64,000 bases of DNA, taken from Deltaproteobacteria bacterium. Its GTDB lineage: Bacteria > Desulfobacterota_D > UBA1144 > Nemesobacterales > UBA2774. The position numbers and the translations under genes were made by a program. Position 1 is the stretch's first letter; each line of letters begins with the position of its first letter. The notes below the pieces were generated by a model. It searched no databases, was not told the origin of the DNA, and worked only from the letters and a program-made list of their open reading frames with translations. Shown piece after piece: positions 23,314 through 58,206 of this stretch. The stretch is from positions 1 to 64,000 of the forward strand of contig JAJCZS010000022.1 of the NCBI GenBank assembly GCA_029262275.1. Reading direction: 5' to 3'.

Positions 23314-23672
23314 CAATATCACCTCCTTTTTGTATTTCCTCTATCCTTCTTATAGTTGTAAAACAACGAATAATAACACTGCAACATAGTGCAATTAGGG
23401 TGCCAATATATAAATTCTCAATAGATTGGGTGACATAGCCCGATCAGTGGAGCTCCCAATTCTTCAAATTGTGCAATATGCACAGTATTGAGTTGGTTAT
23501 ATCCCACAAAAATTCATATATGTCTTCTCAAGCAATCTAGTTCAACTCTCTAACAAACTAGAATTATTAGACATTTTGTTTTTCTCGTATTATGGCATGA
23601 TCGTTGCACTTATGTATGAATGTCGGCTGGAAAAATTAGTGGCCGTCAAATAAATATCAGGAGGTAATAGAA
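23314..23672. other. Intergenic region with sigma-54 promoter
   Basis: Between divergent small-protein genes. Contains a palindrome TGTGCA-ATA-TGCACA (23470-23484), a plausible upstream activator site, and a sigma-54 promoter (23593-23608). No ORF or RNA gene seen. Confidence 0.5.
23593..23608 (+). promoter_or_regulatory. Sigma-54 (-24/-12) promoter
   Basis: TGGCATGATCGTTGCA fits the TGGCAYG-N4-TTGCW consensus exactly; predicted start near 23619, giving a 54-nt leader to ATG 23673. Confidence 0.75.
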
Positions 23673-42523: not shown

Positions 42524-42565
42524 AAAAAAAAGGAGAAGCCCGGTGAAATTAATCACCAGGCTTCT
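42524..42565 (-). terminator. Rho-independent terminator
   Basis: On the minus strand AGAAGCCTGGTGA pairs with TCACCGGGCTTCT (one mismatch), followed by CTTTTTTT. It ends the first FGVQ-peptide operon. Confidence 0.85.
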
Positions 42566-42595: not shown

Positions 42596-42865
42596 TTATA
42601 TGGCATTGTCACCGCCCAGTTCTACTCCGAATACATAGTAGGTATTGTCATTTACTGACTGTTCAGATGCTTGGTTTGAATTCTGAAGCTTCTGTACCTG
42701 AAATGTATCGCTTAGACTCTGGGCTACGTATCCACCGTTGATACTGTTGCTAACTTCTGCTTGCTCTACTGGAATTTGTACTCCGAAAGCGCTTACCTCT
42801 GCCTGTGATACTGCTGGAATACTAAGTCCTACTATTAATGCTCCTGCGATTAAAAGTTTCTTCAT
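42596..42865 (-). CDS. FGVQ-family small secreted protein, second gene of operon copy 1
   Basis: 89 aa: signal peptide (1-22, ending SQAEV), the shared AFGVQIPVEQAEVSNS, GGYVAQSLSDTFQVQKL, and a C-terminal YYVFGVELGG absent from the first gene. Mature part about 67 residues, no Cys. GGAGGCAGTAAA precedes the ATG, the same as at its paralogs. A CGGGT/ACCCG hairpin (near 42888) lies in the gap to the upstream gene. Function unknown; family not recognised. Confidence 0.72.
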   Translation of the reverse strand: MKKLLIAGALIVGLSIPAVSQAEVSAFGVQIPVEQAEVSNSINGGYVAQSLSDTFQVQKLQNSNQASEQSVNDNTYYVFGVELGGDNAI

Positions 42866-42932
42866 TTTACTGCCTCCTGTGTTATCGGGTTCGACCCGTA
42901 TTTTAGTACTGATGAATCTGTTTCGAATTCAA

Positions 42933-43196
42933 TTAAGAATTCTTTAGTTTCTGTACAACAAATGAGTCTGCTGCACTACTAGCCACATGACTTCCGGCAC
43001 TTGCTTTGTCAGACTGTAGACTTTGTACTACTAGTGTGTCTGAAGGGCTTGATGCAACGTATCCGCCTCTGATGTTGTCACTCACTTCGGCACTCTGTAC
43101 CGGTAGCTGCACTCCAAAAGCACTTACCTCTGCCTGTGATACTGCTGGAATACTAAGTCCTACAACTAATGCTCCTGCGATTAATAATTTTTTCAT
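42933..43196 (-). CDS. FGVQ-family small secreted protein, first gene of operon copy 1
   Basis: 87 aa: signal peptide (1-22), SAFGVQLPVQSAEVSDNIR, then two tandem units of the type GGYVASSPSDTLVVQSL and SHVASSAADSFVVQKL (about 44-85). No Cys, no membrane segment after the signal. Nearly identical to the 48856 product except at the C-terminus. A hairpin (GCAGCT/AGCTGC) lies before the RBS GGAGG, and a MarR-type palindrome at 43254 lies upstream. Function unknown. Confidence 0.75.
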   Translation of the reverse strand: MKKLLIAGALVVGLSIPAVSQAEVSAFGVQLPVQSAEVSDNIRGGYVASSPSDTLVVQSLQSDKASAGSHVASSAADSFVVQKLKNS

Positions 43197-43253
43197 TTTA
43201 CTGCCTCCTGTTTTAGCAGCTTTGAGCTGCCGTTTTTTTGTGTTCGTAATATT

Positions 43254-43269
43254 AGTTGCAATTGCAACT
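43254..43269. promoter_or_regulatory. MarR-type operator, FGVQ operon copy 1
   Basis: AGTTGCAATTGCAACT, a perfect 16-bp palindrome, identical to the right-hand site at 57317. Preceded on the gene side by the conserved block GTTCGTAATATT shared with copy 2. Confidence 0.72.
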
Positions 43270-43370
43270 AAAAAGGATGCAGGAATTTTGAAGAAATATT
43301 AAAAATAGAGCTCCGCTGTTAATATGTTGTGTAGTAAAGGTAGGTTATGGGATGTCTAAATTGAAAAATA

Positions 43371-43688
43371 TTAGTGCTTCAAACCGTGGTCTTCATCTTC
43401 TTGGATTAAATCTGGATCTTTTTGCGTGATTTCTATCTCACCGTCTTCGCGCTCAGTGAGCTCGTACTGTTTGTCAAAAAACCTGTCAGCAAATACTCTA
43501 ATATCCTCTTCCGTAGTATTAATTATTATTTTGGAGATAATATCCTTTTCTCTCACCTCAAGATGCTCAAGAGTGCAGGCGTGCTCTTTCTGGAAAAGCT
43601 TAGAGATATAGGAATTGAGTTTTGTAGCGTATTCAATTATCTCATCTCTTGGAATGGAGATGACGAAAAAGTAGGTTTTTTCATTCAT
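43371..43688 (-). CDS. Hypothetical cytoplasmic protein
   Basis: 105 aa, no signal peptide, mixed alpha/beta pattern (TYFFVISIPRDEIIEYATKL, ISKIIINTTEEDIRVFADRF) and an acidic tail ending DEDHGLKH. Isolated gene facing away from the SprT-like gene. Family not recognised. Confidence 0.5.
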   Translation of the reverse strand: MNEKTYFFVISIPRDEIIEYATKLNSYISKLFQKEHACTLEHLEVREKDIISKIIINTTEEDIRVFADRFFDKQYELTEREDGEIEITQKDPDLIQEDEDHGLKH

Positions 43689-43772
43689 ATAATAATACTA
43701 TTATAATCAATCTAAGAATTTTTTCATTTCCCTTTATGGAACCCAACACAACAGTTAAAATCTGAGTCCTAT

Positions 43773-44267
43773 ATGACTTCACATGAGAAAGTAATCCAAG
43801 AGTGGGAAATTCAAAAAGCTAAGTGGGGACTAAATGATTGGGAGCTTACGTTCTCAAATCAAAAGAGACATCTGGGTTACTGCCGTCCTCGTAAAAAAGT
43901 TGTTTCGATATCAAAGGCATTTATGCAGACTAATCCGTTCGCTGTGATTAAGGACACCCTTCTACATGAGATAGCTCATGCTCTTCATTTTATAGAGACT
44001 GGCAAGACCAATCACAACAACGGCTGGAAACAGTTTGCCCTTAAGGTTGGATGTGAGCCCAAACGCTGCGCAACAGGACAGGGGCTAAATATGCCAGACG
44101 GTAAATATGTCGGGGTGTGTCCGGTATGTGAGAGGACTACTAAATTTTATAGAAAAGTGAGAAGAAGCTACTCGTGCAGCCATTGTACGAATAAGTATGA
44201 TCCAAGATATAAGCTTGCAATTATGACCATGGAGGAGTATAAACGTCTTAAGCTCTCTTCTAGCTAA
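43773..44267 (+). CDS. SprT-like zinc metalloprotease
   Basis: 164 aa. The zinc motif HEIAH (65-69) is in LLHEIAHALHF, third His81 in TNHNNGW, and a zinc ribbon with C116-x2-C119 and C135-x2-C138 follows, as in SprT/Spartan-like proteins. May cleave DNA-protein crosslinks, or serve another proteolytic role. Its stop overlaps the convergent MFS gene by 8 nt. Confidence 0.9.
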   Translation: MTSHEKVIQEWEIQKAKWGLNDWELTFSNQKRHLGYCRPRKKVVSISKAFMQTNPFAVIKDTLLHEIAHALHFIETGKTNHNNGWKQFALKVGCEPKRCATGQGLNMPDGKYVGVCPVCERTTKFYRKVRRSYSCSHCTNKYDPRYKLAIMTMEEYKRLKLSSS

Positions 44268-45543
44268 GATTGTTTTTGTAGGTTTCTTTGATTGTAAGCA
44301 CTGCCATAAGGGATACTGCTGATGCTATGGATAGATAGTACCCAGGGGCATTTACGTTGCCAGTGCTTGAGATGAGATATGAAGCCACTAATGGCGCAGA
44401 GCCTCCGAATATTGAAAAACCAATCACATTGCCTAGAGAAATGCCGCTCATCCTAACTTTTGTAGGAAACGATTCAGCCATAAATGGAGCAAATGCTCCT
44501 GCGAATAACACCATCGACAGACCGCCTGCGAGCTGTACTATTATTTTCTGAGTTAGATTATCCCCAGCAAAGGTTTTAAAAAGTAGTACTCCTACCACGA
44601 CCATTCCAGCACAGCCAACAACCAGGGAAGGTTTTCTCCCAACTCTGTCCGATAGATATGCTGATAGAGGAATTAACAAGGTTATTATGCCTAAATTGAT
44701 TGTGTTTATATTGAGTATCTGTGATAAAGGCATTCCGCCAAATCTGATGCCGAAAGTGATTATGTATACGAATATGAAATAAAAACTTACAGCGAACATT
44801 ATTGTTGCTGAGAGTACTACAAGCACGGGGCGCCAGTATTTTGTAAGGGACTCTTTGATGGGGGATTTCGAGGCTTTCCCTGATTCAATCAGATTGGTGA
44901 ATATGTCTGATTCTTCAATGATTTTTCTAAGAAACAGTGCAGCTATTCCTGTGAGTGCTCCAAGTAAAAATGGAATGCGCCATCCCCATGACATAAGGTC
45001 TTGCTGTGACATTGAGCTAGACACCAGGCCACACACTGCAGATGCAAGCAATATCCCAGTGGTTGTGCCAAAGAGTGACATGCTGCCGTATAGTCCTTTT
45101 AAATTAGGCGGCGCAAGCTCTGTAAAGAGTGACAGTGTAGCGGAGCGCTCGCCTCCAACAGATAGTGCTTGGGCAATTCGTAAAACTATAAGAAGCACTG
45201 TCGCTGAAATTCCAATACTTGCATAAGTTGGTAGTAGTCCAATTAATACTGTTGGGAACGTCATCAAGATAACTGTAAGTATAAAAGCGTTTTTTCTGCC
45301 GAATCTATCACCTATGCTTCCTATTATTAGCGACCCTAGAGGGCGGAATAAAAAACTGAGTGCGAATATCATAAATGTAGATAGAATTGCGATTGTTTCA
45401 CTCGCAAAAGGAAAAAATAGTTTTGAGAGGATTATTGCATAGAACCCAAACAACGAGAAATCATACCATTCCAAGATGATCGCAAGTGTGCTTGCAAGTA
45501 TAGTTTTCTTATGGGGTAGGGCGCTCTTTTGAGTGTTGGGCAT
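44260..45543 (-). CDS. MFS transporter, metabolite:H+ symporter type
   Basis: 427 aa, 12 transmembrane helices. Begins TILASTLAIILEWYDFSLFG and shows SIGDRFGRKNAFI (loop 2-3 motif) typical of the MHS family (ProP, KgtP, ShiA). It imports an organic acid, osmolyte or similar. Substrate cannot be read. No clear RBS before the ATG. Confidence 0.87.
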   Translation of the reverse strand: MPNTQKSALPHKKTILASTLAIILEWYDFSLFGFYAIILSKLFFPFASETIAILSTFMIFALSFLFRPLGSLIIGSIGDRFGRKNAFILTVILMTFPTVLIGLLPTYASIGISATVLLIVLRIAQALSVGGERSATLSLFTELAPPNLKGLYGSMSLFGTTTGILLASAVCGLVSSSMSQQDLMSWGWRIPFLLGALTGIAALFLRKIIEESDIFTNLIESGKASKSPIKESLTKYWRPVLVVLSATIMFAVSFYFIFVYIITFGIRFGGMPLSQILNINTINLGIITLLIPLSAYLSDRVGRKPSLVVGCAGMVVVGVLLFKTFAGDNLTQKIIVQLAGGLSMVLFAGAFAPFMAESFPTKVRMSGISLGNVIGFSIFGGSAPLVASYLISSTGNVNAPGYYLSIASAVSLMAVLTIKETYKNNLS

Positions 45544-45695
45544 AACTAAGGATAATGATTTTTAGCAACTGAGTATAGTCTTGTTAGGAAAATAATTCAA
45601 TGGGAGGGTCTTGCATTAGGTATAAAGTACTACTATACGCTCAAAAGCGTTACTGGGAATTCCACAATAAAACAAATCGCCGAGCAAATCTGATA

Positions 45696-45998
45696 CTACG
45701 ACTTAATCTGTTCCACGAGTTGCAATACAAATTCTTCTCTCTCTTCTTCCGACATACGAACAGAGCCTTTTTCTACTAGTATGGAAATCATCAGTAGTGC
45801 AAATTCGACCCGGTCTTCTTTTGACAACTTAGGGAGGACAGTCTCAAGACATTTAGGCATAAGTCCAGCCATAATCTGAGGCATTCTGCCGCGGCTGGTC
45901 TTTGTGCTGCTTGCCAGGATTCGTGGCATCATAGACTCTAAGGCACTATCCTTTCTTTCCCTAGTCATCCATTTGGATAACTCTTGGATTTCACTCAT
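45696..45998 (-). CDS. Hypothetical Met-rich small protein
   Basis: 100 aa from ATG 45998, chosen because GAGGAGG sits just upstream; an extended frame to 46073 exists without RBS. Amphipathic helices with the repeated pattern MMPRIL, MPQIMAGLMPKCLETVLPKL. Cytoplasmic, no known domain. Downstream of 75 bp of possible leader. Confidence 0.55.
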   Translation of the reverse strand: MSEIQELSKWMTRERKDSALESMMPRILASSTKTSRGRMPQIMAGLMPKCLETVLPKLSKEDRVEFALLMISILVEKGSVRMSEEEREEFVLQLVEQIKS

Positions 45999-46303
45999 AA
46001 AAGCCTCCTCACACAGAGTGTGCTTTAATGATGATGTCCCCATCCTTCTCTTGTTAAGGGTTTCTTCCGACATTCGTGAAATGCTAGTTGTGGTACCCCT
46101 ACCTAATTAATAGTATGCACCTTTTTAGTATTAAAATAAAGCGTTATTTCTTTTAGAAATTGTGGATTGATTTCCTTAGATACATTAAATTCTATCTATT
46201 TGCAATATTTGCAGGTGTTTACCTGAAATAGTTAAAGTGCAAAGGATTATATGAATTTGACCACATATAACCCTTTGCATACGAGCGTTCGAATTAATTT
46301 GTA
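45999..46303. other. 305-bp region without a supported gene
   Basis: Lies between a hypothetical gene (ATG 45998, minus) and the end of the thaumatin-like gene (46304). An upstream in-frame extension of the first gene is possible. AT-rich; no hairpin terminator seen. Confidence 0.35.
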
Positions 46304-48316
46304 CTATAACTTAGCTATCCTGCTAAATCTTCTTAAGATCAAGAATGCTGGAATTAGTAGATATAGTAGATTTGAAGCAGGTGTTTTGCCCTTTGGAGCA
46401 AGTGAACATCCGCCGCCTCCGCCATCTGATGCGTCCAATCTATCCGGCAATCCATCGCCATTTGAGTCGACTAAAGTAAGGGGTGTGCCGCCATGGTCAG
46501 GATCAAAAATATCTAGAAATCCGTCGCCATTTGAGTCTGTTGTATCATCGGGAAGGCCATCGCCATCATTGTCCCCAAAGCCTCCGCTTTCTTCAAAGTC
46601 TGTTTTGCCATCGTTATCTGAATCTATATCAAGTGTGTCAGGAATACCGTCCCCATCTGTATCAGGAGATATGAACGCCTCTGAACCCTGAGATGGGTCT
46701 CCAATATCTGCAAGCCCGTCCTGGTCGACATCAGTAGTATCATCCACTCGACCGTTGAAGTCCTGATCAAAAGCTACACCGCCTGCATCTATAATATCAG
46801 GCAGACCGTCATTGTCTGAATCAAGATCAAAAGCATTTGGAATTCCATCACCGTCGGCATCGTTCATATCAGCTATTTCTCTTGTCTGTTGATTAGCTTG
46901 CAAAGCAAAAGTTTCCTGGGCATCCGGTATACAGTCGTTGTCCGAGTCGGTGTCGCTGTTATTACATACATTATCCCCATCGCTGTTTATACAGCAGAAG
47001 TTAATTGTATAACTGGTAACACTTCCTGCTTTAGCCTCACAAGCGAATAGTTTAATTGCATCGTCGAATGGAAAAGCATATGCCGTAGGGCTTGCGTCGT
47101 TAAACACAGAAGCTACCGGCTGGGCGTTTGATTGCCAGTTTGAGTTGTTCCCTGCAACACAAGCTCCGTCAGGAAAAGCATTTGGGAACCCGGGTGCCCA
47201 ATCGGGACATCCACAGCAGTCGGGGTTGTTTTGATTAAGAGTAAAGCAAGAACCTGCATTAACACCTGTGCAAGCCCAGAGCTGACCATTTGTGGTATTG
47301 CCTATGGTAGTATCGCAATCAGTTCCAAGAATTGTTCCGTTTTTCTCACAGAAGCCAGAGTTTCCGCAATCCTGGGTGTAGGGTGGGCCGCAATCACCGT
47401 CAGCACTGCATGATTTCCGGCAAAATTTCTCAGGAGCTATGCAGCCTACATAGGTGCTTCCCTGATTTTGAGTATCAGTCATTTGCATGTCAGCCGGGCA
47501 GTTGGCTTGTGATATAGCAAACTCTGTGGTTCCGCCCCATGTAGAGTGAGGCAGTACAGATTGAGTTAAACCTTGCGGGGCGCATCCTTTCTTATCTGTA
47601 CATCCAGGGCTTCCGCAAAAGTATGGATTCACGCACATGTTCAGATTCGGATCGCAGCTCCATTTAAAACCGAAGCCAAAAAGAGCGTAACAGTCAGAGT
47701 CTTGAGAGCAGGTTGAATTATTTTTGCCCGGAAGGTTTCCTGTAAAAATACAGTTTGAATTACTTGTGCAGTCATATGTGCTTGGATCTGGGATCATATC
47801 AACTGAGACATTTCCCCCGTCTACCATGCTCACGTCATAGCTATCCTGTCCGTTTTGTACAAATGTTATTTCTGCTAATGTAGCGGGCGGTATTCCAGTG
47901 TTTTCGCAGTCAAGAGTAAAATTGCCTGCCGAGTCCGTGCACCCCCCCGTGTCGCAACAGTTTGCTGGAGGGTTATTGTTTGGTCCAAACGCCGGGCACA
48001 TATTATTTGCCATAAAATTGCATCCTGTTCTTGCCCAGAACCTCCCACTGTTATAGCTAAGAGGCACTTGCACAGTTGCTGTGTCTCCCGACATCATTTC
48101 CCAACCACCAAAGGTTGTAACGGTCTGACCTGGAATCGTAACAGACTGTACTTTTGGGTTTGCCCCAACCCATATAGTGTCTGAGCAGTTGTTGTTAATA
48201 GTGATTGTATGTGTAGATTGCGCGTAAGCTGTGTAGTTCTCTGCATTTATGAGCAAAGACATAAATGAAGCAAGAAAAAGCAAAGAAAAAAGCTTTGTAA
48301 CCGTTTTGAAATTCAT
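46304..48316 (-). CDS. Thaumatin-like protein with TSP3 calcium repeats and C-terminal anchor
   Basis: 670 aa: signal peptide (1-33, ending AYAQ); a thaumatin-like beta domain (about 36-180, ITINNNCSDTIWVGANP, WARTGCNF); a Cys-rich region (about 180-430); a thrombospondin type 3-like array of DxDxDG units (about 460-625, e.g. DADGDGIPNAFDLDSDNDG); and a tail GGGGCSLAPKGKT, hydrophobic helix and RR (about 636-670). The tail resembles GGGCS-type CTERM anchors, with the Cys perhaps lipidated or cleaved by a rhombosortase-like enzyme; none is in this window. Likely a calcium-stabilised surface protein. Confidence 0.8.
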   Translation of the reverse strand: MNFKTVTKLFSLLFLASFMSLLINAENYTAYAQSTHTITINNNCSDTIWVGANPKVQSVTIPGQTVTTFGGWEMMSGDTATVQVPLSYNSGRFWARTGCNFMANNMCPAFGPNNNPPANCCDTGGCTDSAGNFTLDCENTGIPPATLAEITFVQNGQDSYDVSMVDGGNVSVDMIPDPSTYDCTSNSNCIFTGNLPGKNNSTCSQDSDCYALFGFGFKWSCDPNLNMCVNPYFCGSPGCTDKKGCAPQGLTQSVLPHSTWGGTTEFAISQANCPADMQMTDTQNQGSTYVGCIAPEKFCRKSCSADGDCGPPYTQDCGNSGFCEKNGTILGTDCDTTIGNTTNGQLWACTGVNAGSCFTLNQNNPDCCGCPDWAPGFPNAFPDGACVAGNNSNWQSNAQPVASVFNDASPTAYAFPFDDAIKLFACEAKAGSVTSYTINFCCINSDGDNVCNNSDTDSDNDCIPDAQETFALQANQQTREIADMNDADGDGIPNAFDLDSDNDGLPDIIDAGGVAFDQDFNGRVDDTTDVDQDGLADIGDPSQGSEAFISPDTDGDGIPDTLDIDSDNDGKTDFEESGGFGDNDGDGLPDDTTDSNGDGFLDIFDPDHGGTPLTLVDSNGDGLPDRLDASDGGGGGCSLAPKGKTPASNLLYLLIPAFLILRRFSRIAKL

Positions 48317-48440
48317 CGCATCCCTCCTAGAAATACCATCCTAATAATATAATACCTTACTAATATTTAGTACGTAATCAAAGTGGTAGGTGGATTAGAA
48401 AAAAGTTAAAGAGAATATTAATGTTAGCGCACACTGTACG

Positions 48441-48480
48441 CAGAAAAGCCCTAGGAGCGGTTAGGCTCCCAAGGCTTTTG
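48441..48480 (-). terminator. Rho-independent terminator
   Basis: Minus strand AAAAGCC/GGGAGC pairs with GCTCC/GGGCTTTT with a small internal loop. It ends the second FGVQ-peptide operon. Confidence 0.7.
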
Positions 48481-48514
48481 GTTGGATGGAGGATGGTATG
48501 GTCTATTTGAGAAA

Positions 48515-48790
48515 TTAAATTTCTTTGTTGCTGTCCAAAGCTACTCCGAAAACGTAGTATCTATCATTATCATACGTATTCTCTGACGATTCAGTTTCAT
48601 TTGAGCTGCTGAGCTTCTGAACATGAAACGTATCGGAGAGGCTTTGGGCTACATAACCGCCGTGTGCGCTATCACTTACTTCTGAGGTCTGAAGCGGAAT
48701 CTGAACTCCGAATGCATTAACCTCTGCCTGTGATACTAGTGGAAATGTTGCCACTAATGCTAAAACTGTTGCTAGTACAAAACCTTTCAT
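48515..48790 (-). CDS. FGVQ-family small secreted protein, second gene of operon copy 2
   Basis: 91 aa, paralog of the 42596 product: signal peptide, NAFGVQIPLQTSEVSDSAHG, GGYVAQSLSDTFHVQKLSSS, C-terminal YYVFGVALDSNKEI. The signal peptide is more diverged than in the other three. GGAGGCAGTAAA before the ATG. No MarR palindrome in the 65-bp gap to its partner, so it depends on the upstream gene's promoter. Confidence 0.7.
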   Translation of the reverse strand: MKGFVLATVLALVATFPLVSQAEVNAFGVQIPLQTSEVSDSAHGGYVAQSLSDTFHVQKLSSSNETESSENTYDNDRYYVFGVALDSNKEI

Positions 48791-48855
48791 TTTACTGCCT
48801 CCTATAATTTTTTTATTAAACTTCTGCTGCTAGTTACAAAACCAATCGCTCATAT

Positions 48856-49131
48856 TTATGAATTAGGTGATGAACTTCTTAGTTTCTGTACAACAAATGA
48901 ATCTGCTGCACTACTTGCCACATGGCTTCCGGCACTTGCTTTGTCAGACTGTAGACTTTGTACTACTAGTGTGTCTGAGGGGCTTGATGCAACGTATCCG
49001 CCTCTGATGTTGTCACTTACCTCGGCACTCTGTACCGGTAGCTGCACTCCAAAAGCATTTACCTCTGCCTGTGATACTGCTGGAATACTAAGTCCTACAA
49101 CTAATGCTCCTGCGATTAATAATTTTTTCAT
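48856..49131 (-). CDS. FGVQ-family small secreted protein, first gene of operon copy 2
   Basis: 91 aa, almost the same as the 42933 product through residue 84 (one residue, Ser to Asn, before FGVQLP), then a different tail RSSSPNS. DNA is also near-identical, including the upstream RBS, the GTTCGTAATATT block and the operator. This implies a recent duplication of the unit, with a lag in divergence between first and second genes. Confidence 0.75.
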   Translation of the reverse strand: MKKLLIAGALVVGLSIPAVSQAEVNAFGVQLPVQSAEVSDNIRGGYVASSPSDTLVVQSLQSDKASAGSHVASSAADSFVVQKLRSSSPNS

Positions 49132-49188
49132 TTTACTGCCTCCTGTGTTTGCGGTGTGAGCCGCGTTTTTTTTGTGTTCGTAATATTA

Positions 49189-49202
49189 GTTGCAATTGCA
49201 AC
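49189..49202. promoter_or_regulatory. MarR-type operator, FGVQ operon copy 2 / MFS operon
   Basis: GTTGCAATTGCAAC, a perfect 14-bp palindrome, lies 58 bp upstream of the peptide gene on one side and 69 bp upstream of the MFS gene on the other, so it could serve both. Confidence 0.7.
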
Positions 49203-49270
49203 CAAAAAGGATTCAGGGTTTCGAAATTTATTTGCTTTTGCTTTTGCTTAGGGTTAATTAGTCATTAATC

Positions 49271-50866
49271 ATGGGAACAATAGGCAGACCCCCTTCAGTA
49301 CCTCCACTCATACAAACAGAGCCAATCAGAGCGGCTTCAAAGAAAAGAACAGGCCATTGGGTACTTGCGGCAACCATACTTGGCGCAAGTATGGCATATA
49401 TAGACGGGACCGCCGTAAATGTTGCCCTGCCTGCACTTCAAGAGCAGCTTGATGCCACAATAGTAGATATGCAGTGGGTGATTGAGGCTTATGCTCTATT
49501 TCTGGCCTCACTCATACTAGTCGGAGGAGCTCTAGGGGACCGTTACGGAAGAAGGCTCATATATGCAATTGGTATTGCTTTATTTGCAGTAGCTTCGGTT
49601 CTCTGCGGTATATCGGAGAATGTGACAGAGCTTATTTACTTCAGAGCGCTTCAGGGAATAGGAGGCGCGCTAATGATTCCAGGTAGTTTGGCAATAATCA
49701 CAGTGTTTTTTGATGAATCAGAGCGAGGGAAAGCAATTGGGACCTGGGGTGCTTTCTCGGCAATTACAACTGCTGTTGGACCTGTTCTGGGTGGTTGGCT
49801 TGTGGAGGAAGTATCTTGGCGCTGGATATTCTTTATTAATGTACCAATAGCTGTAGTTGTTTTGTTTCTCTTGTTCTTACGGGTCCCCGAGTCAAAAGGA
49901 GAGCTTGCGAAGTGCAAGATTGATTACTGGGGTGCAGTGCTCGCGACTGTTGGACTTGGTGGAATAATCTACGGATTGATCGAGTCTGCCGCATTAGGGT
50001 TCACTGATCCGATTGTGTTTGGGTCAATTCTAATTGGAGTTATATCCATAATAGCTTTTGTGATAGTTGAGCATAGAGTTGAAGCCCCTATGATGCCCCT
50101 TAAACTGTTCCGCTCCAGAACATTCAGTGGAGCAAACTTGGTTACTTTGCTGATGTATGCCCCTTTGGGAGGCGCTCTGTTCTTTCTGCCTTTTGCAATG
50201 ATTCAAATATTTGACTATACGGTAACCGGGGCCGGGGCCTCGTTTATGCCTATTATAATTCTCCTCTTTTTAATGTCGCGTTGGTCAGGAGGATTGGTAG
50301 ATAAATACGGTGCTAAGTTGCCTCTTGTGGTCGGAAACATAATCCAAGCTTTGGGTTATGCTTTATTTGCTCTGCTGGGAGGCGGAGGCAACTATTTCTA
50401 TACTTTCTTCCCGGGAATGTTTGTTCTAGGTCTTGGGCTTGCCCTATGTGTGGCACCTCTAACCACTGCTGTTATGAATGCAGTGCCTACTGCTTTCTCA
50501 GGTACTGCCTCTGGAATAAACAATGCCGTGTCTAGAGTCTCAGGGCTAGTTGCGATTGCTGTATTAGGCATAATAATGCTCTTTTTGTTTAGCTCCGGGA
50601 TGGATAACGGTATGCATCTGAGTGATATTCCCCAGGAAGTTCAGGAAGCTTTTAAAGGGGAGTATATTAATTTGGCAAATGCTGAGATGCCTATAGGGAT
50701 TAGTCCCGAGATAGAGCAGAAGCTCAATAATTTGATTAAACTTTCCTATGTTAAAAGCTTTAATACATTAATGTACATTGCCGCTGTGCTATGTTTATTA
50801 AGTGCGCTGATAGCATGGTTTATGATTAGAGATGGAAAAAAATATAAAGAGGAAACCAATGAGTGA
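49271..50866 (+). CDS. MFS drug efflux transporter, DHA2 (EmrB/QacA) type
   Basis: 531 aa, about 14 helices. Family motifs: YIDGTAVNVALPALQEQL, GGALGDRYGRRLIY (motif A) and GTWGAFSAITTAVGPVLGG. It should pump drugs, dyes or fatty acids out of the cell. It lies near a MarR-type operator, as many EmrB-like pumps do. The stop overlaps the ChrR-like cupin gene by 8 nt, so they are an operon. No RBS visible before ATG. Confidence 0.9.
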   Translation: MGTIGRPPSVPPLIQTEPIRAASKKRTGHWVLAATILGASMAYIDGTAVNVALPALQEQLDATIVDMQWVIEAYALFLASLILVGGALGDRYGRRLIYAIGIALFAVASVLCGISENVTELIYFRALQGIGGALMIPGSLAIITVFFDESERGKAIGTWGAFSAITTAVGPVLGGWLVEEVSWRWIFFINVPIAVVVLFLLFLRVPESKGELAKCKIDYWGAVLATVGLGGIIYGLIESAALGFTDPIVFGSILIGVISIIAFVIVEHRVEAPMMPLKLFRSRTFSGANLVTLLMYAPLGGALFFLPFAMIQIFDYTVTGAGASFMPIIILLFLMSRWSGGLVDKYGAKLPLVVGNIIQALGYALFALLGGGGNYFYTFFPGMFVLGLGLALCVAPLTTAVMNAVPTAFSGTASGINNAVSRVSGLVAIAVLGIIMLFLFSSGMDNGMHLSDIPQEVQEAFKGEYINLANAEMPIGISPEIEQKLNNLIKLSYVKSFNTLMYIAAVLCLLSALIAWFMIRDGKKYKEETNE

Positions 50867-51545
50867 TTTAGACTATATAAACGGAGATATGAGCAAATTT
50901 GTATCAACCGATACAAACAAAATGAAATGGCAAGAGAGCCCAAGCGGGACAGTATGGCGAAAGAGGCTCCACTTGGTTGGCCCAAGCGAGGCGGGCCAAG
51001 TTACATCACTCGTTATGTATGAGGCTAATTCCGATTTTCATGCCCATTCCCACCCGGGAGGGGAGGAAATACTTGTGCTTGGAGGAACGTTCTCTGATGA
51101 AAGGGGAGACTTCACAGCCGGCACGTATTTACTTAACCCCGAAGGATACGAACATACTCCTTTCTCGAAAGAGGGCGGGATTATTTTTGTTAAGCTAAGG
51201 CAGTATCCAGGCAATGACCGAAGCCAAATTGTGGTTGACACGCAAAACTTGGAGTGGATTGAATCAGTGCCCGGCATCTCTATAAAAATGCTCTATTCAG
51301 AACTTAACTATCCAGAGGAAGTGAGCCTTCAAAAATGGGACGGTGGAGCATCACCTGGCGAAATCAGTTATCCGCAAGGGGCAGAGCTTCTAATTTTGAA
51401 GGGAGATCTTCAAGATGAAAATGGCTCATATCCCGAGATGAGCTGGATCAGATATCCTGCTGGATTTAAACATACACCTTCATCCCCAAGTGGATGTGAG
51501 TTCTATATAAAGAGGGGAGGGGTTTCTTCTCTAAATTCTATCTGA
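50859..51545 (+). CDS. ChrR-like double-cupin protein
   Basis: 228 aa from ATG 50859, chosen because GAGGAAACCA precedes it inside the upstream gene. Two cupin domains of the anti-sigma ChrR type: residues about 35-120 (FHAHSHPGGEEILVLGGTF, EGYEHTPF) and about 130-225 (GGASPGEISYPQGAELLILKG, AGFKHTPS). Conserved His and Glu in the first domain could bind zinc. No zinc-binding ASD domain and no sigma factor nearby, so it is probably an enzyme or metabolite-binding protein. Confidence 0.82.
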   Translation: MSDLDYINGDMSKFVSTDTNKMKWQESPSGTVWRKRLHLVGPSEAGQVTSLVMYEANSDFHAHSHPGGEEILVLGGTFSDERGDFTAGTYLLNPEGYEHTPFSKEGGIIFVKLRQYPGNDRSQIVVDTQNLEWIESVPGISIKMLYSELNYPEEVSLQKWDGGASPGEISYPQGAELLILKGDLQDENGSYPEMSWIRYPAGFKHTPSSPSGCEFYIKRGGVSSLNSI

Positions 51546-51610
51546 GCTAGCTTCTGCCCAAAGAAGGATTGCTTTGGGCAGAAGAAAGAAATTTGATTGC
51601 AAGTTGATGC

Positions 51611-52714
51611 TTACTCTGCAGCTTTTAACTCCGCTGTTATATCCACCACTCCAGATCCCATTCCATGTACAGGAAAGCTAAGTCTCTTTCCTTTTGAGCT
51701 CATGTCCAATTTGTTCATATCAACAGATCTTAGCGACATGTTTTCATAAGAACGGTAGTAGAGAATTTTGTTTGCAAGATCCTTGATCACGACCCATTGT
51801 GTGTAGTCATGGAAAGTTTCTCCATTTTCAAAGTCCCTGACTAACCCTACGGGTATATCTACATTGTTAAGTATGTGCTCTGAGAGGTTTACAATATCAG
51901 CTGCTGTGTCTCCTTTGTCAGCTAGATAGGCCATAGCTGCGGCTCTTACAAATCTTGAAGGAGGTGTGGGATCCCCTGGGATACCTTTAAGCCCCGTTCC
52001 CTGACCTGTACCTGCAAAACTGATTCCATTTATTACAGTAGGCTTAACATTTTCTGCATTTAGGTCCACGTAGTTTCTAAGATTCGTTACATGCCAGTCG
52101 TACTTAGGAGAGTTTGTCATAACACCAACACTGTCGTATATCTTGAGTCCGTTGTCTGAGTATTCAATGACTATACCCTTTCCGTCTGCTTGATAGACAG
52201 CATAGTGCACTGGGACTACGATATTATTGAGCACTTCAAGTTTTTCGCCCCAAACTGTTAATTTGGGTAGCTCCTTTTTAACTTCCTCGATTGTGGCAAA
52301 GTTTTGGAGAATATACAAAGGTAGGTCCAAATTAGACATCGCTCTTGATTTGCTTTTTGTTGGAGGATCAACAAACTTTGCCTCACCAGGAAAATACAGT
52401 TCCCCCACTGAGAGACCTACTTCGTTAAATCCATCAGTAGCTATATCCAGACCAAAACCGTCTAGATAAATTACACCGTATTTTGAAGTCCACTTTTTAC
52501 CATCACTGCCATTTGGTAGTTTTGATGTCCTTTTTTGTCCTTTAGGTTGGACAATAACATTTGAATTTAGTTTCTGAGCAAACTCCATACTACGCCCTAT
52601 TACTACAGAGCCGTCTTTTGATGTAAGTCTAAACTCTGTGCATGCGTTTGAGCTGAGAGGTGCAGTGCTGAAAAGAATCAACAGAATTGAAATATAGAGA
52701 ATTGATGTCCTCAT
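51611..52714 (-). CDS. Exported Ntn amidohydrolase (choloylglycine hydrolase / acylase family)
   Basis: 367 aa with a signal peptide (1-24, ending SSNA) cut just before Cys25, which would be the Ntn nucleophile of CTEFRLTSKDGSVVIGRSME. The mature protein is typical of linear amide hydrolases (bile-salt hydrolase, penicillin V acylase), and periplasmic members often degrade N-acyl-homoserine lactones. MTNSPKYDWHVTNLRNYV contains the conserved Asn-Trp-His positions. AAAGGAG precedes the ATG. Confidence 0.88.
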   Translation of the reverse strand: MRTSILYISILLILFSTAPLSSNACTEFRLTSKDGSVVIGRSMEFAQKLNSNVIVQPKGQKRTSKLPNGSDGKKWTSKYGVIYLDGFGLDIATDGFNEVGLSVGELYFPGEAKFVDPPTKSKSRAMSNLDLPLYILQNFATIEEVKKELPKLTVWGEKLEVLNNIVVPVHYAVYQADGKGIVIEYSDNGLKIYDSVGVMTNSPKYDWHVTNLRNYVDLNAENVKPTVINGISFAGTGQGTGLKGIPGDPTPPSRFVRAAAMAYLADKGDTAADIVNLSEHILNNVDIPVGLVRDFENGETFHDYTQWVVIKDLANKILYYRSYENMSLRSVDMNKLDMSSKGKRLSFPVHGMGSGVVDITAELKAAE

Positions 52715-52936
52715 TTGGGTCTCCTTTAATAATTAAAATTAGGAATTCGAAAATTGAAATGCTCTCTTAGTCCTTAATTAAAGATACCCAACTTCTTGAG
52801 AGTATGAGTAGCATCTTTGGAACTACGTTAGATTAGTATATTAAATCTGGGAACACCCGTAATCTTCAGGTAGAATCCTAAGCCTGGAATTGTTTATAAC
52901 AACACGAAAATATTCGGATTCATAAAGGAGTAAGAA

Positions 52937-53314
52937 ATGACTGATACATATAAAGTTGAAGCAGAAGTGCTCGAGCGCAGCCGCCAGTGGATACAGGATT
53001 TCAATAATAAAAATGTAAAAGGTTGTGTGGACGCTTATACCGCAGACGCTGTAATGAATGCTAGACCCATGGGAACCTATAAAGGGATAGGTGAGATAGA
53101 AGGGTTCTGGAAACCATTTATTGAGACAGGTGCTGCAGAGCTTGAATATAGCAATGTTGAAGTGGCTGTTGAAAATGAAAATACAGTTCTACTAAGAGCT
53201 GATTGGAAGATGAATATCGGAAAAGGCGTAGTCATCCAAGAAAGATGGGTAAAACAGTCAGACGGTAAATGGCTCTTGGAATATGATGATTTTGAAGTAC
53301 AAGAGCAGTATTAA
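52937..53314 (+). CDS. SnoaL/DUF4440-like NTF2-fold protein
   Basis: 125 aa with ERSRQWIQDFNNKNVKGCVDAYTADAVM at the start and WKMNIGKGVVIQERWVKQSDGKWLLEYDDFEV at the end, a common nuclear-transport-factor-2-like pattern for small-molecule enzymes or binding proteins. AAAGGAG precedes the ATG. Single gene. Substrate unknown. Confidence 0.83.
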   Translation: MTDTYKVEAEVLERSRQWIQDFNNKNVKGCVDAYTADAVMNARPMGTYKGIGEIEGFWKPFIETGAAELEYSNVEVAVENENTVLLRADWKMNIGKGVVIQERWVKQSDGKWLLEYDDFEVQEQY

Positions 53315-53356
53315 AATTCCTATATCCTAAAATATGTAGCCTTCAATAAGTTTCTC

Positions 53357-54073
53357 CTACGCTGTGGACTCCTTTGGCTTGGGCTTGGATATATGAAGCC
53401 CAACCAATCTAGCGACCATTATTGTCAGGTATAGCTGCCCAGTCATAGCTTCTAATGATGCAAGTGAGCGGGCTTGATTCGTTATTGCCTCTATATTTCC
53501 ATATCCTACAGTTGTCAGAGTTACATAGCTGAAAAAGAGAAAATCAGGTCCGTCTTGAAGAGCTCTCCCGTCAGTATCTACAAATGAACCAGGGTATAGG
53601 GATTCAACAATATAATACAGAGTAGCCCACGTAAGCCCTATTAGAATATAGACGCATATTGATGCGGATAATATCTCAGTTGTAACTTCTCGGCTTTTAA
53701 TTATGTGCACAAATATTCTGTAAGTAGTGTATGCAAAAAGAAGAAATGCAAAGACTATTTCATCTTTGACCAAACTGGAGGTGTCAATTGGGATTAGCGG
53801 GAACTTGAGTAATAAAAGCAGAAACCATGGCGCTGCCAGGACTAGAGCCATGATTGTATGGCTCCTCTTGTCGCCCACTGCTATAACAGACATTATCATA
53901 ACAATGGTTGTAAAGAGGCTCAATAATATCTGGCCGCCCATATCTCCTTGCACATAGGGGTATGCTATAATCAAGAGAAGGAGAGATTTGGCTAGATATA
54001 CGAATCTCCTTTTTCTAATGCGATCTAGTATTTTTGAAAATGTGCTCTCACTCAGATTTTGCTCTGTAGTCAT
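53357..54073 (-). CDS. Two-domain potassium ion channel
   Basis: 238 aa from ATG 54073, chosen because GGAGG lies just upstream; the TTG at 54085 lies inside that site. About four or five hydrophobic helices precede the pore: the selectivity filter TTVGYGN (in LFFSYVTLTTVGYGNIEA) is near residue 190, followed by helix LTIMVARLVGLHI. There are few basic residues in the fourth helix, so voltage sensing is doubtful. Inner-membrane K+ channel. Confidence 0.88.
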   Translation of the reverse strand: MTTEQNLSESTFSKILDRIRKRRFVYLAKSLLLLIIAYPYVQGDMGGQILLSLFTTIVMIMSVIAVGDKRSHTIMALVLAAPWFLLLLLKFPLIPIDTSSLVKDEIVFAFLLFAYTTYRIFVHIIKSREVTTEILSASICVYILIGLTWATLYYIVESLYPGSFVDTDGRALQDGPDFLFFSYVTLTTVGYGNIEAITNQARSLASLEAMTGQLYLTIMVARLVGLHISKPKPKESTA

Positions 54074-54251
54074 AATATCCTCCAAGTCTTTCTATTCTTA
54101 GTGGTAAATATAACAATATTCCACAAAACTATGTAGCTTTGTATAATTAAGATAAGATTCTTAGCTGCTAATTAATATAAAAAATTGTAATTTTGAAGCT
54201 TCTTAGGCATAAATATATATATTGTCTATTACTGATTTAAGAGGAATATGA

Positions 54252-54653
54252 ATGAATAGTTATAAACTGGTTTCGTGTGTTGTTGTAATTTTAGTGCTGC
54301 TCTCCCTTGGCTGTTCCGCTGATAAAAGTGAACAAGGTGTTGGGCATGGCGAGAGTCTTGAGTCTGCAGATAATGCAGGAGCTGTAGTTTCATCAGATAA
54401 TGGTGTTGAGCTGTGCGGCGGTTTGCAGGGGCTTCAATGCAGTGAAGGGCAGTTCTGTGATATGCCTGCTGGACAGTGTCAGGTTGCTGATTCCCAGGGC
54501 AACTGTGTATATCAGCCCCAAGTTTGCACAAGGGAATACAGACCGGTTTGCGGATGCGACGGCGTGACCTACGGTAATGATTGTGGTCGTATAAGCGCTG
54601 GGGTTTCCAAGGATTATGATGGTAAGTGCAAAGATGGAACTGTAGGGTATTAG
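54252..54653 (+). CDS. Kazal-type protease-inhibitor-like lipoprotein
   Basis: 133 aa with lipobox LSLGCSADK (Cys at about residue 20), a Ser/Glu/Ala-rich linker, a Cys pair region CGGLQGLQCSEGQFCDMPAGQCQ, and a Kazal domain (about 78-125) with CVYQPQVCTREYRPVCGCDGVTYGN... of the form C-x3-6-C-x7-C-x6-Y-x3-C. Likely inhibits serine proteases at the outer membrane or surface. GAGGA precedes the ATG. Followed by a heme peroxidase gene. Confidence 0.82.
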   Translation: MNSYKLVSCVVVILVLLSLGCSADKSEQGVGHGESLESADNAGAVVSSDNGVELCGGLQGLQCSEGQFCDMPAGQCQVADSQGNCVYQPQVCTREYRPVCGCDGVTYGNDCGRISAGVSKDYDGKCKDGTVGY

Positions 54654-54751
54654 TTCGATTGAATTAATTGGTGGTATTGCAAGTTTAGTTTATAATTATT
54701 TTTAGAATTAGAGTAGCTTAACGCAAAATAATGAGTAGTGAGAAAGGGGAT

Positions 54752-56374
54752 ATGATGAAGAACTTTAATAGTATTAAATCCTTAGTATTCTTAATTTTAA
54801 TTACATTTCTAATAGCGGGTTGCCATGACGATTCAAATTCAAATGGTAACGACGTGAGATCAGTTGATGGCTCAGGCAACAATTTGCAAAACCCTTTGAT
54901 GGGTGCGACCATTACTGAGCTTATAAGATATGTATTTTCAGATTATGAAGATGGCATCTCAGAAATGCCTGAAGCAGATCTTCCAAGCGCAAGGCTAGTA
55001 AGCAATTTTGTAAATTCCCAAGAAACTCTAATTCCAAACCCACAGGGCGCCAGTGACTATATCTGGCAGTGGGGACAGTTCTTGGATCATGACATAGATT
55101 TCACAAATGGTGCAAATCCTGTTGAGCCTGCAGATATTCCAGTGCCAGCAGGAGATCCGTTCTTTGATCCTTTTGATACCGGCACTCAAGTAATCATCTT
55201 TGATAGATCAGTATATGATACATCGACTGGTGTAGGAGTTGGTAATCCTCGCCAGCAAATCAATACGATAACAACATGGATTGATGCTTCAAATGTTTAT
55301 GGTTCAGATGTGGAAAGAGCAGTAGCCCTAAGAACAAATGACGGCACCGGAAGGCTGAACACGAGTTCTGGGGATCTTCTTCCTTTTAATACCCAGGGGC
55401 TTCCAAATGACGGAGGCGATGATGATCCCTTTTTGTTCTTGGCAGGTGATTTCAGGGCCAATGAGCAGGTTGGGCTTTCTGCAATGCATACCCTTTTTGT
55501 AAGAGAGCATAACCGTTATGTAGAAGAGCTCGCTGCACAAAGACCTGGTCTGAGTGGCGATGAGCTCTACGAGCGGGGAAGACGTTTTGTAGGAGCGCTT
55601 ATTCAGGCAATCACATACAATGAGTTCTTGCCTGCCCTTATGGGCGGCGCAGCTCTCTCTCCTTATGACGGCTACAATCCAAGTGTTGATGCTTCAATAG
55701 CTAATATATTCTCCACAGCTGCATATAGGTTTGGGCACAGTATGTTAAGTCCGGAGCTTCAAAGGCTGGATCAGAATTTAAATGTTATTGCTGAGGGCAA
55801 CCTGGAGTTGAGGGATGCGTTTTTTAATCCCGAGGCCATAGTTGATGAGGGCGGGATTGATCCAATCCTAAGGGGGCTTGCAAAACAAGTTGCTCAAAGA
55901 CTTGATCCTTTCATTATAGATGATGTTCGTAATTTTCTTTTTGGTCCTCCCGGGGCTGGAGGTTTTGACCTTGCATCTCTTAACATACAAAGAGGCCGAG
56001 ACCACGGACTTCCTAGATATAATGACGTAAGGGAGCAAATGGGGCTTTCAAGAGTATCAACTTTCTCCCAAATTAGCTCTGATGCTGATATCCAGATGAG
56101 TCTTGCGGAGGCATACGGCAATGTGGATGATATTGATCTTTGGGTAGGTGGACTTTGTGAAGATCCTGTTGCCGGATCACATCTTGGTGAGCTGTTTCAA
56201 TTAATTATCAAGGTGCAATTTGAGGCTCTAAGGGACGGAGACCGGTTCTGGTATGAACGTAAGCTGGGTAATGCTGAGCTGCAAGAAGTTCTAGCTACGA
56301 GTCTCTCTGATGTAATAAAGAGAAATACCGGTATAGGCTCTGAACTTCAAGATAATGTGTTTCAAGCACAGTAA
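54752..56374 (+). CDS. Animal-type heme peroxidase, lipoprotein form
   Basis: 540 aa from ATG 54752 (ATGATG 54752/54755), chosen because AGAAAGGGG lies directly upstream; ATG 54731 lacks an RBS. Lipobox LIAGC within the first 24 residues indicates membrane anchoring, unlike its secreted paralog at 24218. Catalytic residues are intact: QWGQFLDHDIDF (distal His), MHTLFVREHNR (Arg), AAYRFGHSMLSP (proximal His) and IQRGRDHGLPRYND (Asn). Likely oxidises substrates with H2O2 in the periplasm or outside. Confidence 0.92.
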   Translation: MMKNFNSIKSLVFLILITFLIAGCHDDSNSNGNDVRSVDGSGNNLQNPLMGATITELIRYVFSDYEDGISEMPEADLPSARLVSNFVNSQETLIPNPQGASDYIWQWGQFLDHDIDFTNGANPVEPADIPVPAGDPFFDPFDTGTQVIIFDRSVYDTSTGVGVGNPRQQINTITTWIDASNVYGSDVERAVALRTNDGTGRLNTSSGDLLPFNTQGLPNDGGDDDPFLFLAGDFRANEQVGLSAMHTLFVREHNRYVEELAAQRPGLSGDELYERGRRFVGALIQAITYNEFLPALMGGAALSPYDGYNPSVDASIANIFSTAAYRFGHSMLSPELQRLDQNLNVIAEGNLELRDAFFNPEAIVDEGGIDPILRGLAKQVAQRLDPFIIDDVRNFLFGPPGAGGFDLASLNIQRGRDHGLPRYNDVREQMGLSRVSTFSQISSDADIQMSLAEAYGNVDDIDLWVGGLCEDPVAGSHLGELFQLIIKVQFEALRDGDRFWYERKLGNAELQEVLATSLSDVIKRNTGIGSELQDNVFQAQ

Positions 56375-56382
56375 ATAGAGTT

Positions 56383-56697
56383 TTACTCTGTCATAACTTC
56401 TGGCTCAGCTGGCGGCTCGTACGGAGTTCCTTCATTAGATATACACTCAACTTCACATTCAGAAAGTGTGAGTAAGTTGACCAAGGTAGTTTTCAAACAA
56501 GTGATAGGGTTCTCAGAGAACGAGACTTTATCCTGAGGCTTAATCCCTTCACATTTGGTAAGCATTTTATATGGCTTCTCCCCTATGATTACATAGTTGC
56601 CTTTAATTGCTTCTACCGTGTGCTCTCCCCAGCCTTGAGCAAATGTAGTCATTGAAAGTCCTGATAGGATTAGCAGTGCTGTAATGAATATTTTCAA
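56383..56697 (-). CDS. Small exported protein, Cys-containing
   Basis: 104 aa: signal peptide (1-20, ending TTFAQ), then a beta-strand-rich domain with YVIIGEKPYKMLTKCEGIKPQDKVSF and a tail with two more Cys (SECEVEC) and a Pro/Glu end. TTG start (56697) supported by GGAGG. Convergent to the heme peroxidase. Family not recognised. Confidence 0.6.
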   Translation of the reverse strand: MKIFITALLILSGLSMTTFAQGWGEHTVEAIKGNYVIIGEKPYKMLTKCEGIKPQDKVSFSENPITCLKTTLVNLLTLSECEVECISNEGTPYEPPAEPEVMTE

Positions 56698-56773
56698 TAT
56701 AATTTCCTCCAGTGTTTAATGGATACCCAGTATACTCAATGTCCACTAAGAGCTCAATTCATTTCTTAGAAGA

Positions 56774-57247
56774 TTAAGAAAGTCCGCTTGCTTGAATGCG
56801 CTCAATGAAGTTCTTAAACTCTTTCAACTCTTTTTTGTTGAATTTGCAAAGAAAATTTTCCCTTACAACCCTCTCATAGACTGGCCACATCTTTTTTCGT
56901 AACTTTCTTCCCTTCTGAGTTATTGATGCGGTTCTCCCTCGGCCGTCATTAGGGCACTGGCCTCTTTCTACGAGTCCCTCTTCTTCAAGTCTCTGGGCCA
57001 ATCTGGTTACGTTATACTTATCAAGGAGCACCCTCTTGCCAAGGTCGTTTAAACGCAGCATTCCATTCTCAACACGCTCAAGCTCCCATAATACATCGTA
57101 CCAGCTTAGAGCAGGAAACCCCTTCTTCTTTAACTCTTCTTCAACTTTTTCTATTAAACTCTGCTGCGCCTGAACAAGCCCAATCCATGTGCTTGCCTCT
57201 GTTTCGGTCCACTTTGCGTCATTGCTACTTTTGTTTCCCTTCATCAT
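56774..57247 (-). CDS. MarR-family transcriptional regulator
   Basis: 157 aa winged-helix protein: GMLRLNDLGKRVLLDKYNVTRLAQRLEEEGLVERG (helices 2-4) and DGRGRTASITQKGRKLRKKM (wing). One Cys (C-P-N-D) lies just before the wing and one near the C-terminus (NFLCKF); they might sense oxidants. GGAGGAATATG precedes the start. The divergent intergenic region holds two identical palindromes, and the same palindrome occurs at two other loci, so it likely controls them. Confidence 0.9.
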   Translation of the reverse strand: MMKGNKSSNDAKWTETEASTWIGLVQAQQSLIEKVEEELKKKGFPALSWYDVLWELERVENGMLRLNDLGKRVLLDKYNVTRLAQRLEEEGLVERGQCPNDGRGRTASITQKGRKLRKKMWPVYERVVRENFLCKFNKKELKEFKNFIERIQASGLS

Positions 57248-57279
57248 ATTCCTCCTTTTTTAAAATATAGAATAAAATC

Positions 57280-57332
57280 GTTGCAATTGCAACAAGACTG
57301 TGATATACATATTAATAGTTGCAATTGCAACT
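57280..57332. promoter_or_regulatory. Two MarR operators with face-to-face promoters
   Basis: GTTGCAATTGCAAC occurs at 57280-57293 and 57318-57331, centres 38 bp apart. Rightward: -35 TTGCAA (57281), 17 bp, TATACA (57304). Leftward: -35 TTGCAA (57330), 17 bp, TATATC (57307-57302). Each operator covers one -35 box and the start site of the other promoter. Confidence 0.75.
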
Positions 57333-57386: not shown

Positions 57387-57719
57387 ATGAAGAGAATCAG
57401 TAGAGAAGAACTTAGGGATAAGTTGATAATACATGAGAACCTAAAGTTGGTAGAAGCACTTCCTAAGAAGTACTGGGAGCGCTCTCATATACCAGGGGCA
57501 GTTCAAATGGATTACAAAGAAGTCTTGCAAAAAGCAGATAGGCTTCTGCCTGATAGAGGAGCTCAAATAGTTGTGTATTGTGCCAGCACAGAGTGCCAAA
57601 ATTCCTCAATCGCAGTTCGTGAGCTTGAGAATCTAGGCTATACAAATGTGCATGAGTATGTCGAGGGAAAACAGCACTGGCTGGAGGCTGGACTACCTAT
57701 TACACGGAGTGCTAGTTAG
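57387..57719 (+). CDS. Cytoplasmic rhodanese-like protein
   Basis: 110 aa, a single rhodanese domain with loop CASTECQNS and active Cys near residue 68 (VVYCAST). The six-residue loop points to sulfurtransferase activity. AGGAGG upstream of the ATG (57387). First gene of a MarR-controlled pair, followed after 34 bp by a DoxX protein; likely part of thiol/sulfur or redox stress handling. Confidence 0.88.
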   Translation: MKRISREELRDKLIIHENLKLVEALPKKYWERSHIPGAVQMDYKEVLQKADRLLPDRGAQIVVYCASTECQNSSIAVRELENLGYTNVHEYVEGKQHWLEAGLPITRSAS

Positions 57720-57753: not shown

Positions 57754-58206
57754 GTGATAAACAAGATACTAAGCACTGATATTGAGGATTGGGGTGGGTT
57801 GATTGCAAGAATATTTCTGGGAGTAGTGATTCTGCCTCATGGGCTTCAAAAGTTGTTAGGCATGTTTGGTGGCTACGGATTCTCAGCTACGGTCGAATAT
57901 TTCTCGAGCACCGGCATACCAAGTGTGATCGGGATCTTAATAGTTTTGGCAGAATCCTTTGGAGCGTTATTCTTGATTCTTGGATTAATAAGCCGTATCT
58001 CTGCTGCTGGGCTAGCCATAATCATGCTTGGCGCAATTATAATGGTTCACGGACAATATGGATTTTTCATGAACTGGTTTGGCGCCCAAGCAGGTGAGGG
58101 GTTTGAATATCATTTGCTCGCTTTAGGGATTTCGCTTGTGGTGCTATTAAAAGGCGGAGGCAAATGGGCTTTGGATACTGAGGTACTCAATAAAATTGAT
58201 AGATGA
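57754..58206 (+). CDS. DoxX-family membrane protein
   Basis: 150 aa with four helices, the DoxX length, typical start LIARIFLGVVILPHGLQKLLG. GTG start at 57754 with AAGGAGG upstream. DoxX-like proteins take part in sulfur oxidation, quinone-linked or stress functions. Second gene of the MarR-controlled operon; ends before a terminator. Confidence 0.92.
   Translation: MINKILSTDIEDWGGLIARIFLGVVILPHGLQKLLGMFGGYGFSATVEYFSSTGIPSVIGILIVLAESFGALFLILGLISRISAAGLAIIMLGAIIMVHGQYGFFMNWFGAQAGEGFEYHLLALGISLVVLLKGGGKWALDTEVLNKIDR

Follow-up and report, generated by a model that had tools for sequence, protein, structure and literature searches.

A shared palindrome as the very probable operator of a MarR regulon linking rhodanese-DoxX genes with small secreted-like proteins

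The 64,000-nucleotide stretch of DNA analysed here (the window) carries a repeated 14-bp palindrome, GTTGCAATTGCAAC, and comparison with 60 further genomes makes it very probable that GTTGCA-NN-TGCAAC is an operator. In the explanation that we consider best, and to which we give a probability of roughly 0.8 on the sequence evidence, the palindrome would be the operator of the MarR-family protein encoded at 56774-57247, which would repress three units until released by a signal. That marR, the rhodanese-DoxX genes and the genes for the small FGVQ proteins belong to a single MarR regulon appears highly likely from the distribution of the site. Mechanistically this would be a standard autoregulated MarR regulon; what is new is that it is conserved within an uncultured order and is linked to secreted-like proteins of a hitherto undescribed family. 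It offers a compact and testable regulon, with a defined operator, in the uncultured order of this Dadabacteria-type bacterium. The features concerned are the following.

42534-42565, minus strand: terminator-like hairpin at the end of FGVQ operon 1 (13 pairs, then a T run)
42596-42865, minus strand: FGVQ small secreted-like protein, second gene of operon 1 (open reading frame; no site of its own; terminator-like hairpin behind)
42933-43196, minus strand: FGVQ small secreted-like protein, first gene of operon 1 (open reading frame; family alignment; site ends 58 bp before the start codon)
43255-43268, unstranded: putative operator of the first FGVQ operon (exact match; TAATAT directly after, on the minus strand)
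48515-48790, minus strand: FGVQ small secreted-like protein, second gene of operon 2 (open reading frame; family alignment)
48856-49131, minus strand: FGVQ small secreted-like protein, first gene of operon 2 (open reading frame; site ends 57 bp before the start codon)
49189-49202, unstranded: putative operator of the second FGVQ operon (exact match; conserved FGVQ-side promoter surroundings; also 68 bp before the divergent MFS gene)
49271-50866, plus strand: DHA2/EmrB-type MFS efflux pump (NCBIfam efflux_EmrB, 288 bits, cut-off 230); shares site 49189 by position, regulon membership doubtful
50832-51545, plus strand: ChrR-like cupin protein (Pfam Cupin_7, 158 bits, cut-off 27); overlaps the end of the MFS gene
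56383-56697, minus strand: small secreted-like protein gene directly downstream of marR (same order in G002, G004, G009, G011 and G012)
56774-57247, minus strand: MarR-family regulator, 157 aa, likely repressor acting at the palindromes (Pfam MarR_2 and MarR; nearest structures 3zmd and 3zpl)
57280-57293, unstranded: putative operator 1, marR side (exact match to GTTGCAATTGCAAC; overlaps the -35-like TTGCAA of the marR promoter candidate; kept upstream of marR orthologs)
57318-57331, unstranded: putative operator 2, rhodanese side (exact match to GTTGCAATTGCAAC; -10-like TATAGT directly after; exact site at all 14 rhodanese orthologs)
57387-57719, plus strand: rhodanese-domain protein, 110 aa (Pfam Rhodanese, 48 bits, cut-off 22.2)
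57754-58206, plus strand: DoxX-family membrane protein, 150 aa (Pfam DoxX, 74.3 bits, cut-off 23.6)

The initial annotation had reported four identical palindromes and proposed that they be counted genome-wide against the base-composition expectation. All four are exactly where it placed them (43255-43268, 49189-49202, 57280-57293 and 57318-57331), and a scan of the whole genome (2,475,536 bp in 47 contigs, 97.5% complete) returned these four exact copies only, every one inside the window and at related promoters, against expectations, all computed from the composition of the window, of 0.010 (base composition), 0.013 (first-order Markov) and 0.020 (second-order Markov) copies per genome. This outcome accords with what the annotation had named as support, namely few hits and those mainly ahead of related genes. 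The reversed pattern, used as a control in the same whole-genome scan, gave 0 copies. Five perfect 14-bp palindromes occur in the window and GTTGCAATTGCAAC alone among them occurs more than once. Loosening the two central bases (GTTGCANNTGCAAC) recovers the same four places in the genome and adds none, and allowing up to two mismatches yields 34 places versus 3 for the reversed control. The only single-mismatch place, C7:61293 (L005:1501-1514, G000), lies 163 bp upstream of a sigma-factor gene and was rejected as an extra target, no similar site being present in 10 relatives. In the literature searched, the core palindrome turned up only in two papers, both about other matters. Since sites 43255 and 49189 sit within near-identical duplicated FGVQ promoters, the four copies in the window do not count as four independent events; relatives offer the more stringent test, and independence comes from other genomes.

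The comparison set comprised 61 genomes, our own and 60 others. MarR orthologs (46-84% identity) are encoded in 16 other genomes of the order, the close named records being Thermodesulfobacteriota bacterium DHS20C13 and two Candidatus Dadabacteria MAGs. The site stands upstream of marR, in one or two copies and in some cases with up to two mismatches at or beside its centre, in 16 of the 17 orthologs; in the seventeenth and most distant (G029), the region that separates marR from a divergent doxX contains a version wider by one base, GTTGCAATCTGCAAC. Where marR diverges from rhodanese or doxX there are usually two sites 36-38 bp apart, and the 38 bp from operator 1 to operator 2 in the window is a spacing kept in many relatives. 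The exact site precedes every rhodanese ortholog (14/14, 29-79 bp before the start), including copies that are unlinked to or separated from marR (G009, G007, G011, G012). Most leading FGVQ genes of the same genus and family likewise have it, 33-61 bp before the start; the second genes of tandem FGVQ pairs have no site, and in more distant FGVQ genes it is often absent. The marR, rhodanese-DoxX and FGVQ families are tracked by the site through family and order, even where they are unlinked. Searched across the 61 genomes, GTTGCAWWTGCAAC gave 40 sites (reversed-pattern control, 0), 38 of which lie, by our own assignment, at marR, rhodanese, doxX or FGVQ genes. Of the remaining two, one precedes a G021 gene for a small secreted-like protein that is perhaps remotely related to FGVQ (E = 0.012), and the other falls within an unrelated transporter gene (G055). 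Upstream of DoxX paralogs outside the marR locus the site was found in 0 of 13 tested, and of 2320 random 270-bp windows from the loci examined, 5 contained it with no more than one mismatch. Genomes with a MarR ortholog have the site in 16 of 17 cases and those without in 3 of 44 (Fisher p = 7.6e-11, a value that overstates the evidence because related genomes are treated as independent). In G001 the MarR ortholog and sites are present and no FGVQ gene was found.

A promoter candidate for marR (TTGCAA-17-TATATT, 57292-57264, minus strand) overlaps operator 1, and at the other two classes of promoter a -10-like hexamer immediately follows the palindrome (TATAAT or TATAGT for rhodanese, TAAATT or TAATAT for FGVQ). 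Among FGVQ promoters the palindrome never varies in its outer 12 bases, and conservation extends to the GAATCCTTT block just upstream but no farther. These positions relative to the -35 and -10 elements would suit repression through blocking of the polymerase, and repression at these promoters is what we think likely.

Three other accounts of the sites have to be weighed. We consider it unlikely that the MarR protein acts as an activator at the FGVQ or rhodanese promoters instead of repressing them: in favour of this, no good -35 hexamer was seen and there is no consensus match at either, but a dimer on sites that adjoin the -10 hexamer, as these do, would normally keep polymerase out, and most characterised MarR proteins repress (PMC3737563). 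Less probable still, and in our judgement very unlikely, is that a regulator other than the 56774-57247 protein binds the palindrome at some or all targets. In its favour, G003 (a 92% complete MAG) and G006 (83%) have FGVQ sites and no detected MarR ortholog; however, both assemblies are incomplete and also have no linked rhodanese gene, so the whole marR locus may be missing from them, and elsewhere the marR promoter itself almost always contains the site, which co-occurs with the MarR ortholog. Our own genome yielded no other close MarR homolog. That the palindromes are copies made by gene duplication or by a repeat element, without regulatory meaning, is scarcely credible. The duplicated promoters around 43255 and 49189 would accord with such an origin, but the outer bases stay invariant in FGVQ promoters where the farther upstream sequence does not, and in many genomes the site recurs in promoters whose genes come from unrelated families; on both counts a spread-repeat origin was rejected.

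The initial annotation had assigned all three loci, the MFS-cupin operon included, to one MarR protein, which, if true, would couple thiol/redox genes, efflux and tiny secreted proteins in one response. The assignment is supported for marR, rhodanese-DoxX and FGVQ, since the site follows these families, and finds little support for the MFS-cupin operon, most MFS homologs having no site. Among the 17 MFS homologs tested, the exact site precedes three (G000, G004, G005) and a degenerate one precedes another (G006); in all four genomes the pump is divergent from an FGVQ gene, and homologs that are not so placed (for example in G002, G010, G009, G007 and G014) have no site. The surroundings of site 49189, namely the GAATCCTTT block, the palindrome and a TAAaTT-like hexamer, reproduce the conserved FGVQ-promoter pattern, so that the site looks like part of the FGVQ promoter and the neighbouring pump is probably no more than a bystander. 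Control of MFS pumps is common among MarR regulators. It is possible, if doubtful, that site 49189 is a true operator of the MFS-cupin operon too and that efflux is co-controlled with the redox genes and FGVQ: the 68-bp distance to the MFS start has similar counterparts in G004 and G005 (degenerate in G006), and MFS homologs stay near marR in G009, G007 and G021 and next to a DoxX gene in G028. Against this stand the loss of the site wherever the pump is not divergent from FGVQ, the case of G002, in which the FGVQ gene retains its site while the pump starts 1.35 kb off behind another gene, and the orientation of the conserved promoter block at 49189, which faces the FGVQ gene. Because MFS homologs have no site unless FGVQ-divergent, the coupling comes down to the redox genes and the secreted proteins, and efflux has at most a doubtful place in it. 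More generally, when two divergent genes have a site in common, one of them may be mistaken for a target; here the comparison of genomes does not back that role for the efflux pump.

The candidate repressor itself scores above the curated Pfam cut-offs for MarR_2 (51.8 bits, cut-off 27) and MarR (40.2 bits, cut-off 24.6), and above no NCBIfam equivalog cut-off for the named subfamilies (OhrR, SlyA, MarR, HpaR, MprA). Its best score is for OhrR, at 43.2 bits against a cut-off of 200, on which basis OhrR-type membership was rejected; SlyA gave 30 bits (cut-off 120) and MarR 18 bits (cut-off 240). It resembles OhrR, SlyA and classic MarR in winged-helix family, autoregulation from a divergent region and palindromic operators, but falls far below their equivalog cut-offs. 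The solved structures closest by sequence are AbsC (3zmd) and SCO3205 (3zpl) of Streptomyces coelicolor, remotely similar at 47-49 bits in a single-sequence search. SCO3205, the closest relative whose structure was solved together with DNA, has two pseudopalindromic operators, with consensus TTnAAnnnTCAA, between itself and a divergent gene (PMC3737563). The two-operator divergent layout and operators of similar length with TT...AA edges are common to both systems; the operator bases differ (GTTGCA-NN-TGCAAC here versus TTnAAnnnTCAA), as do the neighbours, sco3204 being extradiol-dioxygenase-like. In the protein from the window, C98 in the wing is the only invariant cysteine. It was considered as a redox sensor; since AbsC and SCO3205 also have a cysteine at the aligned position, its presence does not on its own argue for such a role. 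The gene at 56383-56697 probably belongs to the marR operon, and its product (about 100 aa) has no Pfam or NCBIfam match. On the other side of it, 54731-56374 (plus strand) encodes a lipoprotein-like animal haem peroxidase (Pfam An_peroxidase, 539 bits), next to marR also in G002 and G004.

Under the mechanism that we propose, a dimer of the MarR protein would bind one GTTGCA-NN-TGCAAC palindrome and block RNA polymerase, because the sites overlap the -35 element (marR) or abut the -10 element (rhodanese, FGVQ). Three units would be repressed: marR together with the small secreted-protein gene behind it, the rhodanese-DoxX pair, and both FGVQ operons. Without signal, MarR dimers would occupy the operators and keep these units low; an inducer, most plausibly an oxidant, an electrophile, a reactive sulfur species or a small aromatic ligand, would release MarR, and the rhodanese-DoxX and FGVQ proteins would then be induced together, any effect on the MFS-cupin operon through site 49189 being at most incidental.

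The presence of rhodanese and DoxX points towards sulfane sulfur or thiol redox as the process served. What links the two proteins here is gene adjacency and a common site; our literature search found no paper combining MarR, DoxX and rhodanese. SseA is a rhodanese-type protein, and the small secreted partner in HvfX systems is cysteine-rich. In the part of the Mycobacterium tuberculosis account considered here, DoxX and SseA, with SodA, form one oxidoreductase complex (PMC6930017). The likeness is that the rhodanese and DoxX genes of the window make up one operon, which differs in having no SodA, and neither the MarR control nor FGVQ has a counterpart in that part of the account. In the GIG/HvfX operons of Legionella and Cupriavidus a DoxX-type membrane protein is associated with a small secreted-like protein (PMC5413113), a pairing that recurs here, and our DoxX protein matches the HvfX model weakly (41.8 bits, below the cut-off of 80). 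The FGVQ proteins are, however, cysteine-free, and no DUF692 or DUF2063 gene was seen beside DoxX; with the sub-threshold score and a partner without cysteine, HvfX/GIG membership was rejected.

The FGVQ proteins comprise about 90 residues, with a signal-peptide-like start, an AFGVQ(L/I)P segment, a GGYVA...DTF.VQKL segment and frequently a second FGV near the C-terminal part; cysteine is absent from all 28 aligned members. They are putatively secreted. Pfam gave no match at E values up to 0.1 and NCBIfam nothing that reached its cut-off, and an AlphaFold2 model of the family (pLDDT 59.5, pTM 0.16) was unusable. The genes occur in 22 of 119 genomes searched, all within the order of the source genome. 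For a family without a match in the curated libraries, the apparent co-regulation with rhodanese-DoxX would be the first functional lead. FGVQ and DoxX genes are neighbours in G029 and G034. The FGVQ gene of G029 is preceded by GTTGCAGCTGCAAC; that of G034 has no site, nor was a MarR ortholog detected in that genome. As a speculation that we rate as rather unlikely, FGVQ could be the extracytoplasmic arm of a lineage-specific DoxX-rhodanese stress system, cysteine-free and responding to the same signal, acting on or with the DoxX complex at the envelope; such an arrangement, if true, has not been described before.

Several further observations concern this family and its surroundings. The FGVQ relative of G003 (L103:5202-5501) consists of three tandem repeats of about 23 residues each (GGYVATSAADALTVQKL...), hinting that the family may have arisen from a repeat unit. 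An open reading frame at 23011-23322 (minus strand) ends in NVFGVQVP and matches the family weakly (E = 0.0005), with no operator nearby. A short hairpin is possible between promoter and ribosome-binding site in the FGVQ leaders (43196-43254 and 49131-49188, minus strand) and their homologues; across 11 leaders compared, the stems vary with pairing kept (for example GCAGCU/AGCUGC, GCGG/CCGC, GGCGGG/CCCGCC), shuffle z-scores are moderate (+0.7 to -2.6), and a similar hairpin lies at 42886-42898 ahead of the second FGVQ gene. Between the two FGVQ operons, 46304-48316 (minus strand) encodes a protein of 670 aa that is unusual for a bacterium: a thaumatin domain at its N-terminus (76 bits, cut-off 27) is combined with Asp-rich repeats resembling thrombospondin type 3, and the chain ends in a hydrophobic tail. 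Beyond the cupin gene, 51611-52714 (minus strand) encodes a member of the choloylglycine-hydrolase family with a signal-peptide-like start (Pfam CBAH, 224 bits).
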